This document shows positions 53,917 through 61,497 of a stretch of 64,000 nucleotides of DNA, one piece after another. Numbering within the stretch: position 1 is the first letter of the stretch; every line of letters begins with the position of its first letter. The translations under genes and the position numbers were made by a program. The DNA is from Acidihalobacter prosperus (GTDB lineage: Bacteria; Pseudomonadota; Gammaproteobacteria; DSM-5130; Acidihalobacteraceae): positions 480,637 through 544,636 of the forward strand of contig NZ_JQSG02000006.1 of NCBI RefSeq assembly GCF_000754095.2, in the 5' to 3' direction. The notes under the pieces were generated by a model, which ran no database searches, was not told the DNA's origin, and was given only the letters and a program-made list of their open reading frames with translations.

Positions 53917-54768
53917 TCAGGTCACGCCTTGTAGCATCGCCGACCTGACAATGCGCCCTACCGTGGCCAGATGCAGCCCGAAATGTTCCGCAATCTCCCG
54001 GTAACTGTAGGCACCCGTAGCATAGGCCTCGACAATGGCATCGTTACGCTCCGCATGCCGGGTTTCGATGGCCGCCAGCGATTTCGGCGGCGCTCTACGT
54101 TGCACGCGCGGGATAGCGAATCGATCGTTAGGTTTTGCGGCCTTCTTCTGCGCCCACCGCACGAACGCCTCGTCGCCCAGATAGATTTGCTGGCGCAGCG
54201 CTGTCCACACACTTTGCTGCCCGATGCCTTCGGCCACAAACTGCGCGTAGCGACGTCGGGCGACTGAGCGGCGGCTGGCAAACAGCGCCAACAACCCCTG
54301 CGTGGCCAGCCAATCCGGAGGCGTTGCTTCGCCCATCATTGCCGGATAGCTACTCCAGGGGTAATCGATCGGATGCTTGATCATCCCCGCACGAACCGGA
54401 TTGAGCACGACATAACGGGCAAGTTCCAGCAGGTAGTGATCCTTGTCGACCAGAATGCCCTTAAAGCGGCCCTGGAACAAATGCCCGCATTTATGGTGAC
54501 GACGGTTCGTCGCCTGCGTGTATACGCCGTTGAGCTGCCGCATGCCTTTGGAAAGCTTCCCATCCGGCGTCTCGATGACCAAGTGATAATGGTTGGTCAT
54601 CAAGCAATAGGCGTGGCAAATCCAATTGAATTGACCCACAACCTCGGCCAGCACCCTCAAAAACGTCAATCGGTCTTCGTCGTCTTCGACAATCGGCTCA
54701 CGCCGATCACCCCGCGAGGTGACGTGGTAGAGCGCTCCGGGAAACTCAATGCGTAGAGGACGTGCCAT
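53917..54768 (-). CDS. REP-associated tyrosine transposase (RayT, Y1_Tnp) with C-terminal HTH
   Basis: A 283-residue HUH-type Y1 transposase. The N-terminal MARPLRIEFPGALYHVTSRG, the HUH pair in NHYHLVIETP and the helix with GHLFQGRFKG followed by YLLELARYVVLNPVRAGM are typical. The catalytic Tyr is in that last helix. Residues about 235-280 add a helix-turn-helix (EAYATGAYSYREIAEHFGLHLATVGRI) used for DNA recognition. RayTs are domesticated relatives of IS200/IS605. A degenerate copy of its 5' end is at 55213-55358. Confidence 0.9.
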   Translation of the reverse strand: MARPLRIEFPGALYHVTSRGDRREPIVEDDEDRLTFLRVLAEVVGQFNWICHAYCLMTNHYHLVIETPDGKLSKGMRQLNGVYTQATNRRHHKCGHLFQGRFKGILVDKDHYLLELARYVVLNPVRAGMIKHPIDYPWSSYPAMMGEATPPDWLATQGLLALFASRRSVARRRYAQFVAEGIGQQSVWTALRQQIYLGDEAFVRWAQKKAAKPNDRFAIPRVQRRAPPKSLAAIETRHAERNDAIVEAYATGAYSYREIAEHFGLHLATVGRIVRSAMLQGVT

Positions 54769-54820
54769 AGAGGGCGCCATAGCCGATGAGGAGGGATGTT
54801 GCATTACGAGGCCAGACCCC
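54675..54820 (-). repeat. Repeat copy A: 5' end of rayT plus upstream DNA
   Basis: These 146 bp cover the first ~30 codons of rayT and about 50 bp upstream. They recur in the same orientation at 55213-55358 (exact offset 538, no indels, about 86% identity by hand alignment). Both copies end at the same GACCCC, which probably marks the outer boundary of the mobile unit. Confidence 0.8.
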
Positions 54821-54874
54821 ATTGTTTTCCAGGAGGTTGCAATGGCAGCCTCCTTTCAAAAAAATTTTGGCCCG

Positions 54875-55358: not shown

Positions 55359-55627
55359 TGTTTTTGCGCTGCTTGGCGTGAACCTTCACGAACGCGGAGG
55401 AAGAGACTTTCAATAACATGACCACGCGTGCCAGTACTGAAGAGCAGCGAACGAAAAAATAGTTTTGCCTGCGGCACATTCTTTCCAACGAAGTCATAGC
55501 GAAAGGCGATGAACGATGGATAGGTGCTGCACACAGTGCCGCGCCGAAGAATGGTGAACCACAACGTAAACAGAGAGGCTGCAAGGGCAATCAACGATAC
55601 GGCGGGCGAGATGTCTGCAAAGGCCAT
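55337..55627 (-). pseudogene. 3'-truncated small membrane-protein gene of a cassette
   Basis: The frame encodes 96 residues: a membrane helix (AVSLIALAASLFTLWFTIL), then RRGTV and FFRSLLFSTGTRGHVIESLFLRV. The last dozen residues come from the rayT remnant, and the stop codon lies inside it, so the native C-terminus has been lost. Its ATG (55627) sits about 10 nt after the attC-like site's crossover point, the usual spacing in an integron cassette. The product, if made, is chimeric. Confidence 0.6.
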
Positions 55628-55631
55628 AAGG

Positions 55632-55697
55632 GGCTAACGTGGAAGTGAGCGGCCTGCGCGGCTTTTCGCGCAGGTCCGCTCGACTGTAGGGTTCGGC
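55632..55697 (-). repeat. Integron attC-like recombination site
   Basis: Read on the minus strand it begins GCCGAAC (55697-55691, R''-like) and ends GTTAGCC (55638-55632, R'-like). Between them is a 14-bp imperfect palindrome, GAGCGG-CCTGCGCG (55647-55660) against CGCGCAGG-T-CCGCTC (55667-55681), with a single bulged T. A bulged base, AAC...GTT ends and 66-bp length are the structural hallmarks of attC. It lies 1 nt beyond the stop of the DUF2971-like gene. Confidence 0.65.
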
Positions 55698-55698
55698 G

Positions 55699-56475
55699 TC
55701 ATTTTTTCTCCAGCGGTGGTGCGGGCTCAATACGGAACTTGCTCAATTCGTCTCTAAGGAAGCTCGAATCGGCTTCAGGAGCAAGCAGGATTTCCCGAAT
55801 CACAGCAGTTGCAATTGCGTTCCGAAAGTCGAACCCAAGTTGCAGAGAAGGCGGAAATTCAATCAGCGAGCCGTCCTTTAGGGCGAAATGCCCGATGCCT
55901 ATGGCAGACAGAGAAATGCGCAATTCATGTTCTTCTCGGAAGCGGTCGCTGTCCTTGAGGTACGTGTAAAGAATCGGATTGGACAGGTACTCCTCGTTGG
56001 TTCGATGAGTACCCCTGGGAACATAGTTAACCAACCCGTAGTTCACCGAGAATATTTGACGACACGGATTTTCTTCATAGAGAAGGACGGTGCCCTCGGG
56101 GTTTAGTGCCGAGTTGAGCATAGCCCTCAGCTTCCCGAACTCGAACACTACGCAGGCTTTTCCCTTCTCGCTTCCGTTCGCGTAGTTCTCCCAAATGTAG
56201 CGGGAATTCTCGACCGAAAAGCAGCATGCGTAGGTTCTGCTTCTGCATTGGTCATAGTAGTCGGCCGCTGAGAAGTCGGGAGCCTTCTCGAACGTCGCGG
56301 CAGCATTGAGAGGTTGATCCTTCGGCAACTGCCTCCCGTCATTTTCGTCGGCGTTCGGAAAGTCTGAATAGCTGTCGACGCGATTGAAATAGAGATAGTT
56401 GTTGGCGACCGATCGCAATAGATTCTCGACCGTCATGACCTTGTACAGCAGTTGGTTATCTGGCGGGATACGCAT
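55699..56475 (-). CDS. DUF2971-like cassette protein
   Basis: A 258-residue soluble protein resembling DUF2971 (LLYKVMTVENLLRSVANNYLYFNRVDSYSDFPNADE, SRYIWENYANGSEKGKACVVFEF). The function is unknown. Such genes are frequent in integron cassettes and islands. GC content is clearly lower than in flanking core genes. The ATG at 56475 directly abuts the left end of the IS5 element, so the native promoter or the preceding cassette junction has been replaced by IS DNA. Confidence 0.7.
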   Translation of the reverse strand: MRIPPDNQLLYKVMTVENLLRSVANNYLYFNRVDSYSDFPNADENDGRQLPKDQPLNAAATFEKAPDFSAADYYDQCRSRTYACCFSVENSRYIWENYANGSEKGKACVVFEFGKLRAMLNSALNPEGTVLLYEENPCRQIFSVNYGLVNYVPRGTHRTNEEYLSNPILYTYLKDSDRFREEHELRISLSAIGIGHFALKDGSLIEFPPSLQLGFDFRNAIATAVIREILLAPEADSSFLRDELSKFRIEPAPPLEKK

Positions 56476-57779
56476 TAGCAGGCTGTTGAAAAAGTCCTGT
56501 AAACCCGGAAGATTGGTTTTGTATTGTTGAGTGAGGGTTGTGGCCGATGCGCGGTGCCGACATACATCAGGATGGGCTGTTCAGCACGGTCAGCCCGGAG
56601 CAACGGGTGCCGAAGGACCATCCTCTGCGCCCGATCCGGCGGATGGTCGATCAAGCGCTCAAAGAACTCGACGCTGACTTCGATGCGCTGTATGCCCATA
56701 TGGGCCGTGACTCGATCCCGCCGGAGAAGCTGCTGCGCGCGCAACTGTTGATGGCGTTCTACACCATCCGCAGCGAACGCCTGTTGGTCGAACAGATCGA
56801 CTACAACCTGCTGTTTCGCTGGTTTGTGGGCTTTTCCATGGACGATCCGGTCTGGCACCACTCCACGTTTACCAAGAACCGTGACCGCCTGCTTGCAGGC
56901 GATGTGGCCCGCACCTTCTTCGCCCGGGTGCTGGATCAGGCCCGTGCGGCCGATCTGCTGTCTAGCGAACACTTCAGCGTCGATGGCACGTTGATCGAAG
57001 CGCTGGCCTCGCACAAGAGCTACCGGCCCCGGGACGAGGACGCGCCGCCGAGCGGTGGCGGGCGCAATCCCACGGTGGACTTTCGCGGGCAGAAGCGGTG
57101 TCGGGAAACGCACGTCTCCAGGACCGACCCGGATGCCTTGCTGTATCGCAAGAGCGAAGGCACGACCGCCAAGCTCAGCTACCTCGGACACCTGCTGATG
57201 GAAAACCGCCACGGCCTGATCGTCGAGTCGCAGACGAGCCAGGCCACCGGCACGGCCGAGCGCGAGGCCGGTGTCGAGCTTGTCGACGCGCTCGGCGGGA
57301 GCCACCGGATCACGCTGGGCGCGGACAAGAACTATGACACGCAAGGCTTTGTGGCGGCGATGCGTGGACGAAACGTCACGCCGCATGTGGCTCAGAACAC
57401 GGCCGGGCGCCGCTCGGCCATCGACGGGCGCACCATCGGCCATCCCGGTTACCGAACCAGCCTGACGATCCGCAAGCGGATCGAAGAATGCTTCGGTTGG
57501 CTCAAGACCATTGCGGGTCTGCGCAAAAGTCGGTTTGTCGGACGCGAGAAACTGGATTTCCAGTTTGTGCTCAGCGCGGCGGCCTACAACCTGGTGCGGA
57601 TGCGCAATCTGGGACTGGCAGCATGTTGAAGGCACACATCAAGGGATCGGTGCGCCCAGAGATCGGGATTTGGGCTGTTTTCGGGAAAAATCAGGCCCCA
57701 GATCCGAAGGGGCACGTCGCCAATGGACCCTGATCAACATGATAACCGCTAAATCGGGGGAATTTTCAACAGCCTGCTA
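56476..57779 (+). mobile_element. IS5-family insertion sequence, complete
   Basis: About 1.3 kb. The left end reads TAGCAGGCTGTTGAAAA (56476-56492) and the right end is its exact inverse (57763-57779), both with further partial matches inward. The terminal TA may be a 2-bp target duplication rather than part of the inverted repeat, as in IS427-type IS5 elements. One DDE transposase gene is encoded. About 150 bp of non-coding DNA follows it before the right end. The IS joins a DUF2971-like gene to a truncated C39 peptidase gene. Confidence 0.88.
56547..57629 (+). CDS. IS5-family DDE transposase
   Basis: A 360-residue transposase. It has an N-terminal DNA-binding region (SPEQRVPKDHPLRPIRRMVDQAL), the first catalytic Asp in FSVDGTLIEA, the second in LGADKNYDT, and the Glu in the C1 motif RIEECFGWLKT. 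The full length and open frame suggest it is active. The ATG at 56547 is preferred over non-ATG codons slightly upstream. Confidence 0.93.
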   Translation: MRGADIHQDGLFSTVSPEQRVPKDHPLRPIRRMVDQALKELDADFDALYAHMGRDSIPPEKLLRAQLLMAFYTIRSERLLVEQIDYNLLFRWFVGFSMDDPVWHHSTFTKNRDRLLAGDVARTFFARVLDQARAADLLSSEHFSVDGTLIEALASHKSYRPRDEDAPPSGGGRNPTVDFRGQKRCRETHVSRTDPDALLYRKSEGTTAKLSYLGHLLMENRHGLIVESQTSQATGTAEREAGVELVDALGGSHRITLGADKNYDTQGFVAAMRGRNVTPHVAQNTAGRRSAIDGRTIGHPGYRTSLTIRKRIEECFGWLKTIAGLRKSRFVGREKLDFQFVLSAAAYNLVRMRNLGLAAC

Positions 57780-58044
57780 CAAGCATTTCGTGGTGCTCAG
57801 GCGGGTGCTTGACGACAAATATTATGTGGCGGATCCGGCGCTCGGGAATCGGATTATGAAAAAGGATCAATTCGAAAAATCGTGGAATGGGATCATTTTT
57901 GCGGTGATAGGCAAGGGCTTCGATCGCAATACCTCGCTGAGGAATCCAGTCGCTCCGCCTACCGTCAAGAGATTCTCGATTTCCGCACCATTGAGCGATG
58001 CAGAGCTGTACGAATATGGATTTTCTCAAAAGGATTTGTTCTGA
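57780..58044 (+). pseudogene. fapD: 5'-truncated C39 peptidase (FapD-like) gene
   Basis: Immediately after the IS right end the frame reads YKHFVVLRRVLDDKYYVADPALGNR and continues for 88 codons. This is the C-terminal part of a C39 bacteriocin-processing-type peptidase, keeping the catalytic His (KHFVV) and Asp (ADPALGN). The N-terminal part with the catalytic Cys is missing. An ATG in the IS (57739) could fuse 13 codons on, giving a 101-residue inactive product. Its position before fapE- and fapF-like genes identifies it as fapD. Confidence 0.75.
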
Positions 58045-58087
58045 GAATCAATCCTCGCGAACTCGATGAATTGAAATGGAGACAATC

Positions 58088-58963
58088 ATGAATACCGTTC
58101 AACGGAACATCCAGCAGAGGATTTCACAGGAAATCGTTTCGCTGGATCAATTGCGCAGAAAAAAGCGTATCCAGAAATGGACCATTACCGTACTGGGGGG
58201 CTGCATCGCCGCCTCGCTGGCCGTGCCGAATTCCGGCGTTGCCTTGCCGCGCGGCGGCGCCATACCCCTGAGCGCCGTGGAGGTGGGTGACGATGTGCTT
58301 GCCGGTATGCGTGGACGCTATGTGACGCCTGCCCAGGTGGTGTACTTCGGCGTCGAAATGCTCACGCGCTGGCAGACCGCCGACGGCGCGGCATACAACG
58401 CCGGGCTATACATCGGCGTAGACCGTAGCGGTAACGGCTTCAAGCCCAATGTGACCATTCTGAGCCGTGAGCAGCGTTCGCCGGGGCAGGCAGGCGGGTC
58501 GCAAGTGGGGCCGGTGGCCTCCAACGGCAGTATCAGTGCCGGCGGTATCGAGAATGTGCAGGGCGTGGGGCAGTCCGTGCAGGTAACGGGAGACGCCAAT
58601 GGCGCCCGCAATCAGATCACGATGAACATCGGCAGCGGCGAGATCAAGATCGGCGCACCCAGCGGCGAAGGCTGGAGTAGCGGTACGGTGGCGACATCGG
58701 ATGGCAATCAGAAGCCGAGCCTGGGCACCCAAGTGGGCGGTGGCAAGGCCAGTGTCAGCATTGCCATTCCCGGCCAGGGTATCGCCCGGCAGGAAATTTC
58801 CAGCCTCAAGGGCGTGCAGCAGCAGGTGCAACTGGTCGGCAGCCTCAACCAAGTCATCAATCACACCACGCTGATCGCCAAATTCAACGAGCAGGTGTCA
58901 AGTCAGAAAGGCCTGAACATGAATGAGGCGCTGAACGCCATGCACGGTCTGTCGGTTTACTGA
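58088..58963 (+). CDS. FapE-like protein of a functional-amyloid operon
   Basis: A 291-residue exported protein. A hydrophobic segment at about 31-52 (WTITVLGGCIAASLAVPNSGVA) follows a basic N-terminus. The segment GMRGRYVTPAQVVYFGVEMLTRWQ is reminiscent of the N-terminal domain of FapE. The middle and C-terminal parts are Gly/Asn/Gln/Ser rich (SISAGGIENVQGVGQSVQV, GDANGARNQI). GGAG precedes the ATG at 58088. Order fapD-fapE-fapF supports the call. The identity rests on order plus weak motif similarity, so FapE is tentative. Confidence 0.6.
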   Translation: MNTVQRNIQQRISQEIVSLDQLRRKKRIQKWTITVLGGCIAASLAVPNSGVALPRGGAIPLSAVEVGDDVLAGMRGRYVTPAQVVYFGVEMLTRWQTADGAAYNAGLYIGVDRSGNGFKPNVTILSREQRSPGQAGGSQVGPVASNGSISAGGIENVQGVGQSVQVTGDANGARNQITMNIGSGEIKIGAPSGEGWSSGTVATSDGNQKPSLGTQVGGGKASVSIAIPGQGIARQEISSLKGVQQQVQLVGSLNQVINHTTLIAKFNEQVSSQKGLNMNEALNAMHGLSVY

Positions 58964-59037
58964 AAAGCCGACATCGCACCAAGTGGTTTATTTCAACACA
59001 CAATAAATCCAATAATCGACTCGTAAGAGGGGACATC

Positions 59038-60381
59038 ATGTCGGACTACCGCACTCCCGTATCTTTTCGGACCATGCCCGGGATTCGCCCATCGGCCGTA
59101 CGCAGGACCGCTGGGCGCCTGCTCGGCCTAGCCTGCCTCGCCGTGCTTTTGCCGGCGGAAGGAATCGCTGCGCCGGCGGTTGACGATGATCTGGAGCTGG
59201 AAATCAATGTACTTAAACAGCGGCTCCAGCACCTCGAGGCAGCCTATCGCAAATTCCGGGCCGCCACTCCGGGTTTGCCCGCGCCTACGGATCGCGAGCT
59301 TGGGCACTTGCGCGGCAAGGGGCCTGCCCCCGACAAGGCCGTGCCAGCCGCAGCCACCACGGCACAACCGGAGGCACCTGCGGATACGGCTGGCGACGAC
59401 ATCAAGAAGCGCCCGGACGCCAGCAAAAGTGCCCAGGCCGTTTATCAGGAACAACATGCGCTTTTCGAGCGCAAATTCACCTTCGAACCGGGCCTGAGTT
59501 ACGCCTATTCGGACCGCAATCAGATCAGCCTCAACGGTTTTCTGGCGCTCGACGCCATTTTTCTGGGTTCGGTCAGTGTCGACAAGGTCAAATCGCATAA
59601 CCTGACGCTCGACCTGACCGGCCGTTATGGTCTGACTCCGAATATCCAGATGGATTTCAATATCCCATATCTCTATCGATATACGGTTTACGAATCGGCG
59701 GGGCAGGGCAGCGTCGGGACGCAGTACAGCAGCGGCAGCTCGTATCTCAACCCGCGCTTCCGCATCGGGGATGTAAACGCGGGTGTGTATTACCGCTTGC
59801 TGACCGAGACCGAATCACGCCCGGATATCGTGTGGAATTTCCGTGTCAAGGCGCCTACCGGCTCCTCGCCTTATGGCATCAAGACCATCAGGCCGCAGTC
59901 GACCAATTCGAGCCTCAACTATCCCGAGACCCTGCCCAGCGGCACCGGTACCTGGGCGTATTCGACCGGGCTGTCGCTCGTCAAGACCACGGACCCGGCG
60001 ATACTGTTCGCCAATCTCGGTTATTTTTACAACCAGCCGCAGCACTTCAACGACATCAGCAGCAATCCCGGGCAGGTGGTGCCCGGTAGCGTCAAGCTGG
60101 GCGACTCGCTCCAGTATGGTCTGGGGATGGCCTTCGCGCTCAACGATACCACCAGCATGAGCTTCGGCTATACCCAGCGGGTCACTTTCCTGAGCCGCAC
60201 GAAAATCGATGGGCAAAGCTGGCAGGATGTGAGCGGCAGTGAAGGCAATGCGGCCATCCTGAATATCGGCGCAACGCACGCCATCAGCAACCGGGCCTCC
60301 CTGGTGTTCGGCCTGGGTATCGGCCTGACCAACGATGCGCCCGATATTCAGGTCAGCGCGAAATTGCCTTATCAGTTCTGA
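59038..60381 (+). CDS. FapF-like outer-membrane amyloid secretion porin
   Basis: A 447-residue outer-membrane protein. A long signal region (about 1-45) is followed by a short coiled coil (LEINVLKQRLQHLEAAYRKF), an Ala/Pro linker and, from about residue 145, a beta-barrel with alternating aromatic strands, ending KLPYQF with a C-terminal Phe. A coiled-coil plug followed by a 12-strand barrel is the architecture of FapF, the exporter of Fap amyloid subunits. A GAGGGG site precedes the ATG. It is the last gene of the truncated operon. Confidence 0.75.
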   Translation: MSDYRTPVSFRTMPGIRPSAVRRTAGRLLGLACLAVLLPAEGIAAPAVDDDLELEINVLKQRLQHLEAAYRKFRAATPGLPAPTDRELGHLRGKGPAPDKAVPAAATTAQPEAPADTAGDDIKKRPDASKSAQAVYQEQHALFERKFTFEPGLSYAYSDRNQISLNGFLALDAIFLGSVSVDKVKSHNLTLDLTGRYGLTPNIQMDFNIPYLYRYTVYESAGQGSVGTQYSSGSSYLNPRFRIGDVNAGVYYRLLTETESRPDIVWNFRVKAPTGSSPYGIKTIRPQSTNSSLNYPETLPSGTGTWAYSTGLSLVKTTDPAILFANLGYFYNQPQHFNDISSNPGQVVPGSVKLGDSLQYGLGMAFALNDTTSMSFGYTQRVTFLSRTKIDGQSWQDVSGSEGNAAILNIGATHAISNRASLVFGLGIGLTNDAPDIQVSAKLPYQF

Positions 60382-60545
60382 AGCTGCTTTTCCCAGCCTG
60401 TCGAAGCGCCTGCGCCGCTTGAACCGCCGCGCACGCGCCTCGGCAGGCTTGCGTGCGTCCATCCGTACCTTTATGGTCCATGCATCGCGCAGGGGGACCC
60501 TGCCAAGCGGACGCCGGATTATCGCAATACTTCACGCAGCCACTC

Positions 60546-60845
60546 ATGACCCAGCCGCTCTCCCAGGATGCATTCGATCGCCAGGTCGAGGTGCTGTTTT
60601 CGGCGCATGGGGCAGGCGCCTTTGCCGCATGCGCCGGCGCCCTGCCCGATTTCACCTTGTTCGTGGACGGCGAGCATGTCGTGGCGGAGCCCCAGGGTAG
60701 CCCACGGCATCGTTACGGCGCCTATTGCGAGCTGGAGGAGCCATTGACGGGCGAGGCGCTGGAAGTACGGGTTCGGCGCTGGCTACGCGGTGGCGAGGCT
60801 TATACTCTCTATCTCAGCATGAACGTCTGCCGCTATAGCTGCTGA
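60546..60845 (+). CDS. Small protein of unknown function
   Basis: A 99-residue soluble acidic protein, not recognised. It has no signal or membrane segment and ends in a cysteine-containing tail (MNVCRYSC). The frame has GC-rich codon use like the neighbours, and the gap to lemA is 55 nt, so it may be co-transcribed. The start is uncertain, since an upstream frame is also open. The 164-bp gap before it (60382-60545) shows no clear promoter. Confidence 0.5.
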
Positions 60846-60900
60846 GCAGGCCGATGCGCACCGGCAGGGCATGCCGGTGCGGGAAAACAGGGGGAAACCG

Positions 60901-61497
60901 ATGGCCATTTCGACGATCGTGGTGCTGGTGCTGATCGGGGCGGGCGTGTTCTACGTCATCGCCATCTTCAATCAGCTGGTCGCGCTGAAGAACCGCTATA
61001 TAAACGCCTTCGCGCAGATCGAGGTGCAGCTCAAGCGCCGTTACGATCTGATCCCCAATCTGGTGGAGACCGCCAAGGCCTATCTCAAGCATGAGCGCGA
61101 GACGCTGGAGGCGGTCATCGCGGCGCGCAACGCGGCGGCTGCGGGCCTCGCGGCGGCGCACGCGGCGCCCGGCGACGCGGCGGCGATGAGCCAGCTCGGT
61201 AACGCCGAGGGGGTGCTCGGCAGCGCGCTCGGCCGGCTCAACGTGGTGATGGAGGCCTACCCGGACCTCAAGGCCAGTCAGAACATGATGCAGCTCACCG
61301 AGGAGCTGACCAGCACCGAGAACAAGGTCGCCTTCGCGCGGCAGGCGTTTAACGATCAGGTGATGGCCTACAACACCTACCGCCAGTCCTTCCCGCAGAA
61401 CATGCTGGCGACGACCTTCGGCCACCCCCGCGATGCGGCCTTGCTCGAATTCGACGACAGCGAACAGATCCAGCAGGCGCCGAAGGTCAGCTTCTGA
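60901..61497 (+). CDS. lemA: LemA family protein
   Basis: A 198-residue LemA protein: one N-terminal transmembrane helix (about 3-22) and a long helical bundle ([45 protein letters not shown]). LemA often accompanies an M48 metalloprotease, as here 18 nt downstream. It may present or regulate the protease at the inner membrane. A GGGGG-type site precedes the ATG at 60901. Confidence 0.93.

Follow-up and report, generated by a model that had tools for sequence, protein, structure and literature searches.

The window analysed here, i.e., the whole stretch of 64,000 nucleotides from Acidihalobacter prosperus, contains genes of the functional-amyloid (Fap) type that begin inside a peptidase gene, at the right end of an insertion sequence (IS). 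The initial annotation proposed that fapABC and the 5′ part of fapD had been lost or moved by IS activity, and that Fap fibres had been lost from this locus. The question is how the operon came to be cut, where its first half is found, and what this would mean for its function. The relevant features of the window are, from left to right:

55633–55697, minus strand: attC-like site after the cassette gene, recognized by eye and fold
55699–56475, minus strand: remainder of an integron-cassette gene, 258 codons; the first 23 codons lie on contig C3 beside another IS copy
56475–56478: left 4-bp IS flank, TTAG, which pairs with the right-hand flank of the copy on C3
56479–57776, plus strand: IS5-family insertion sequence of 1,298 bp, one of at least four identical copies in the genome
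56538–57629, plus strand: IS transposase, 363 residues, DUF772 and DDE domains
57777–57780: right 4-bp IS flank, CTAC, which pairs with the left-hand flank of the copy on C3
57777–58044, plus strand: 3′ part of fapD, with the catalytic His and Asp and without the catalytic Cys
58088–58963, plus strand: complete fapE, 291 residues (295 if translation started at the upstream ATG at 58076)
59038–60381, plus strand: complete fapF, FapF porin family, 447 residues
60871–63459, plus strand: LemA and M48 peptidase genes, a flank marker that in genus mates adjoins the C3-side neighbours

A C39 fragment starting at the right end of the IS, followed by a FapE-like protein and a porin, had been described correctly, and the oppositely oriented cassette gene reported to the left of the IS is seen at 55699–56475 on the minus strand. 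Matches to NF033581, FapD, FapE, and FapF bear out that Fap genes are cut here by an IS5-family element. The fapD fragment starts with the flank CTAC and comprises 87 codons (57781–58041) and a stop codon (58042–58044). It matches positions 87–127 of Pfam PF03412 and positions 137–224 of 224 in the NCBIfam FapD model (5.1e-27, 94.6 bits; cut-off 330). Profile searches agree that the 291- and 447-residue proteins are relatives of FapE (1e-30, 106.7 bits, below the curated cut-off of 250) and FapF (1.8e-120, 402.6 bits, below the curated cut-off of 700), and the NCBIfam bit scores for all five families discussed here (FapB, FapC, FapD, FapE, and FapF) fall below the curated cut-offs. FapF matches the solved FapF barrel 5o65 over residues 127–447 with E=6.4e-89, and a profile built from seven relatives matches the same barrel at 1.9e-121; the match to the solved FapF coiled coil 6fue (E=0.5) is no evidence by itself. 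Given such strong matches, and with the other half of fapD adjoining an identical IS copy, chance is not a serious explanation, and the genes are, as judged by sequence, relatives of the Fap genes. A scan of positions 57400–61000 returned no sigma-70 promoter (shuffles average 1.3) and five terminator-like sites (shuffle mean 2.9), one of them within the IS end at 57654, and because of this result read-through from the transposase gene into fapE and fapF is unproven.

The transposase is placed in the IS5 family by NF033581 (1.3e-79, 267.6 bits, above the cut-off of 140), and the element has the IS5-type DDE transposase, terminal inverted repeats, and 4-bp target duplication of that family. The genome (3,359,675 bases in 8 contigs) carries at least four copies, all identical over 1,298 bp, a lower bound obtained by scoring 40 of 79 first-look candidates. 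Mismatch-free copies of the 1,298-bp element also occur in at least eight places in the chromosome of a second species of the genus (G002), again a lower bound from 40 scored first-look candidates. Judging from these identical copies, IS activity looks recent. Flanks match in two of the four copies in the window's genome (TTAA/TTAA in both) and in six of the eight in G002. Since two of the eight G002 copies also have non-matching flanks, which in their case are not reciprocal, mismatched flanks alone prove little.

The initial annotation suggested that fapABC and the 5′ part of fapD be sought beside another copy of the IS, and this search succeeded. Searching the genome with the C39 peptidase profile yielded four locations. 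The match in the window covers profile positions 84–127, and a match at C3:615020–615283 covers positions 4–83. A third match, at C6:355 kb on the contig of the window, is a 132-residue ORF beside a 910-residue ORF that appears helicase-like by eye. The fapD 5′ part on C3 abuts an IS copy identical to that in the window and corresponds to positions 5–137 of 224 in the NCBIfam FapD model (147.6 bits; cut-off 330). Upstream of it, on the same strand, are genes for FapB (205 residues, 4.5e-38, 130.8 bits, below the cut-off of 190) and FapC (445 residues, 6.2e-54, 183.8 bits, below the cut-off of 195). The place of fapA is taken by a 113-residue ORF without a Pfam or NCBIfam match. The combined gene order is fapC, fapA-like, fapB, and fapD 5′ on C3, followed by fapD 3′, fapE, and fapF in the window. 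Deletion of fapABC was rejected since the genes are present on C3; of the two proposed fates of the operon's first half, moved stands and lost does not.

The sequences flanking the two IS copies correspond crosswise. Read in the same orientation, the window copy is bounded by TTAG and CTAC and the C3 copy by CTAC and TTAG, the arrangement of a reciprocal exchange. Joining the fapD halves across one CTAC gives a single reading frame of 247 residues, which shares 48% identity over 181 residues with FapD from a second fap locus in the same genome. The break falls between residues 160 and 161, with Cys78 on the C3 side and His162 and Asp178 on the window side. Among 78 relatives, the catalytic residues are conserved in 78/78 (Cys), 77/78 (His), and 77/78 (Asp), and the joined sequence is needed to have all three. 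In the assembly the gene is interrupted, and a working peptidase is not expected from either half.

The other join, across one copy of the second duplication, likewise gives an in-frame protein, of 281 residues, with 23 codons on C3 and 258 in the window; the window part resembles DUF2971 with E=0.044, under the cut-off. Beyond the IS copy on C3 are argH (Pfam lyase and argininosuccinate-lyase domains), the integrase gene intI (TIGR02249, 2.1e-142, 474.1 bits, above the cut-off of 265), and cassette-like ORFs, and the array of cassettes continues in the window to the left of the IS. When about 8.2 kb was scanned with a strict attC motif, two sites were obtained, both on C3 (mean 0.18 and maximum 2 in 200 shuffles), and none inside the window. 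The site at L005 5724–5792 has seven of seven terminal pairs, and that at L005 4638–4745 is doubtful, with six of seven pairs and an overlap with an ORF start. Visual inspection and folding suggest three further plausible attC-like sites, including one in the window. A chromosomal integron thus appears cut by the same IS exchange (L005 3567–7509, i.e., C3:609.6–613.5 kb, and window 55600–56478). The exchange would have parted intI and the first cassettes from the remaining ones, which are now on different contigs. Near the cassette array is also a gene for a REP-associated tyrosine transposase (53917–54822, minus strand, 82.0 bits; cut-off 80).

Gene order was compared with two genus mates, G001 and G002. 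In G002, a carbon-nitrogen hydrolase gene (690,328–691,183) and the LemA/M48 pair (698,137–700,709) are 7 kb apart, and in G001, about 4.7 kb separates thiC from a 150-base match to LemA. In the window's genome, genes from the hydrolase/thiC side and LemA instead flank the two separated fap halves. At the other breakpoint, argH in G002 is followed within about 80 bp by DNA matching the window from about 52.1 kb and below, and argH-intI in G001 is followed about 2.4 kb on by DNA matching the window from about 55.4 kb down. A map of sampled stretches of C3 and C6 on G002 (matches of at least 1,200 bases) shows reversed order for C3:619–705 kb (692–603 kb in G002), C6:55–71 kb (582–566 kb), and C6:500–533 kb (54–22 kb), and direct order for C3:605–609 kb (18–22 kb) and C6:541.5–544 kb (698–701 kb). 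On this map, the order at both ends is recovered when the segment bounded by the IS copies in the window and on C3 is flipped. G002 differs by further rearrangements, since its 487–104 kb region matches C3:177–523 kb, and three matches of 66–93% (C3:722–725, C3:739–743, and C6:690–693 kb) fall elsewhere. FapF matches are found in 8 of 56 genomes, the window's genome included. Neither genus mate has a FapF match, and thus no close relative showed the operon in uninterrupted form; at the fap site, G002 has other ORFs.

GC skew changes sign at the window IS. It is −0.043 to the left of the window IS and +0.037 to the right; in sampled stretches, it is negative along C6:1–537 kb except for the first 20 kb (+0.004), and positive past the IS. 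At a 4-kb scale, some intervals left of the IS (8–16 kb) are near zero or slightly positive. On C3, the skew turns positive at about 589–593 kb, drops a little below zero in the integron region that precedes the IS, and is negative beyond the element. This signal fits a recent reversal, and an assembly error that exchanged the same flanks would give the same signal.

Taken at face value, the assembled sequence points to a real inversion between two IS copies that split the fap operon between the window and C3, a reading to which we assign a probability of roughly 0.6. An ancestral operon with the order fapC-A-B-D-E-F would have had the nitrilase-type carbon-nitrogen hydrolase gene on one side and the LemA/M48 pair on the other. 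One copy of the IS would have inserted into fapD between codons 160 and 161 with duplication of CTAC, and a second copy, in opposite orientation on the same chromosome, into an integron cassette gene behind argH and intI with duplication of TTAG. Homologous recombination of the two identical copies, probably of the RecA type, would then have inverted the intervening DNA, roughly 0.67 Mb or more, leaving fapC-A-B-D5′ beside intI and fapD3′-E-F beside the outer cassettes. The inverted stretch would measure 132 + 537 = 669 kb if the end of C3 meets the start of C6; this size is only an estimate because that junction is not demonstrated in G001 or G002, where the two contig ends are not side by side. 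The initial annotation had named IS activity as the cause. The IS is indeed involved, and the outcome requires an insertion in fapD and then, as assembled, a reciprocal exchange with an IS in the cassette gene. Inversions that arise when oppositely oriented IS copies recombine are already known. An unameliorated inversion of such size within one replichore is normally selected against, which counts against this reading.

A possible, if less probable, explanation is that fapD and the cassette gene each carry one IS, and that the assembler crossed over between the identical 1.3-kb copies, in which case there was no inversion and the operon is otherwise in one place. Such a swap would leave the same traces in the assembled sequence as an inversion, and undoing it recovers both duplications, both genes, the neighbour order of the relatives, and a coherent GC skew. 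The first version of the genome consisted of 46 large contigs from Ion Torrent data at 8.5-fold depth (PMC4208320), which is also in line with an error of this type. Some weight against it comes from the two other IS copies, which are joined as in G001, so that blind pairing of IS flanks is improbable; this evidence is weak. The DNA neighbouring the first of these copies is adjacent in G001, with flanks 135 bp apart (2.6 kb in G002), and that of the second corresponds to G001 pieces at 2,122–2,125 kb and 2,126–2,127 kb, with flanks that were not found together in G002. As both are TTAA-flanked, duplications alone could not reveal a swap between those two. Furthermore, the arrangement conflicts with that in the relatives, which suggests that it was not copied from a reference, and a simple inversion is topologically permitted. 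An exchange in the cell rather than in the assembly is for these reasons the reading that we prefer, and the interruption of fapD by an IS holds in both.

Recent transposition, suggested by the at least four identical copies here and at least eight in G002, could also have driven the rearrangement through IS ends acting jointly instead of by homologous recombination. This would be a variant of the inversion, overlapping with it in its odds, and we consider it quite unlikely since both duplications are cleanly and reciprocally swapped with no new duplication at either junction, as expected for an exchange inside the copies. Finally, the genome does carry another fap locus, but the idea that fapABC and the 5′ part of fapD were deleted, and that the genes on C3 belong to a second, unrelated Fap locus ending at an IS by chance, is hardly credible, because the C3 and window halves meet at position 137 of the FapD model, their IS flanks match crosswise, joining them keeps the reading frame, and the other fap locus is in a third, separate place (C6:221.9–233 kb).

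The initial annotation also raised the case of relatives with the same genes and no upstream amyloid genes. This is not the pattern among FapF loci from named records, where in the best 80 of 198 confirmed loci FapB is found in 74, FapC in 77, FapD in 78, and FapE in 78. In the same 80 loci, phmmer matches to the 113-residue FapA-like protein occur in seven, and inspection by eye gave no clear case of fapC before fapB as observed here, with the order in L122 and L160 blurred by overlapping ORFs. In a metagenome-assembled record (L157 4549–5296), fapD matches are spread over two overlapping ORFs. Two Methylotenera loci (L091 and L095) have a FapF-like protein and no other Fap match in the fetched flank, which for L091 comprises only about 3 kb upstream. 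As in the Pseudomonas fapABCDEF operon, homologues of FapB, FapC, FapD, FapE, and FapF are present, with D-E-F in the usual order and a FapF related to the 5o65 barrel. Unlike that operon, fapC is placed upstream of the fapA-like gene and fapB, the FapA-like protein has no family-model match, and the operon is cut in fapD. Acidithiobacillus ferrivorans, another acidophile with a degraded fap operon, has one that is very likely partially deleted (PMC3792158), whereas here both halves can be located, on separate contigs, and what split them can be recognized. With known IS-pair inversions, the present case shares the identical inverted copies at its two breakpoints and the exchanged target duplications; as seen in the assembly, it differs in that each breakpoint breaks a gene, i.e., the protease gene of an amyloid operon and an integron cassette gene. 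A search of open-licence papers found none on a fap operon with an insertion sequence, or on Acidihalobacter and amyloid.

The predicted loss of Fap fibres is not supported. The second fap locus (C6:221912–233072) has matches to FapB, FapC, FapD, FapE, and FapF. It comprises a 110-residue ORF (34% identical over 47 residues to the 113-residue FapA-like protein), FapB, a 761-residue FapC in whose gene TRF found no tandem repeats, FapD with its catalytic residues, and FapE. Its fapF is set apart from the other fap genes by genes for a UDP-GlcNAc 2-epimerase, a YaiO-type barrel, and a glycosyltransferase, and encodes a protein of 347 residues that aligns without the N-terminal coiled-coil region. 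For the Pseudomonas fap system in E. coli, it is reported (PMC5557850) that FapC secretion needs FapD and its active cysteine, and that FapD supplied from a plasmid restores secretion, i.e., it works in trans. Because FapD is required in that system, the split locus, which as assembled would be unable to make its own FapD, is not expected to work alone. If its subunits are exported at all, this would have to rely on FapD from the second locus. Because this FapD is uninterrupted and may serve both loci, it does not follow that the fibres were lost. That fapE and fapF are intact is in keeping with a recent insertion, to which the identity of the IS copies also points. It is conceivable, though we think it improbable, that the inverted IS pair is a standing switch that flips the large segment within the population, with both operon halves in use. 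In such a case fapC-A-B would have its own promoter, fapE-F would rely on transposase read-through, and the protease would be supplied in trans by the second locus, forming one amyloid system from three places.

The site is flagged for users of the assembly, and gene order nearby needs a long-read check before it is used. For other genomes, a seemingly missing half of an operon is worth seeking at the other copies of the same IS. Here, the insertion, the exchange, and the genes broken at both breakpoints are all readable from the sequence.
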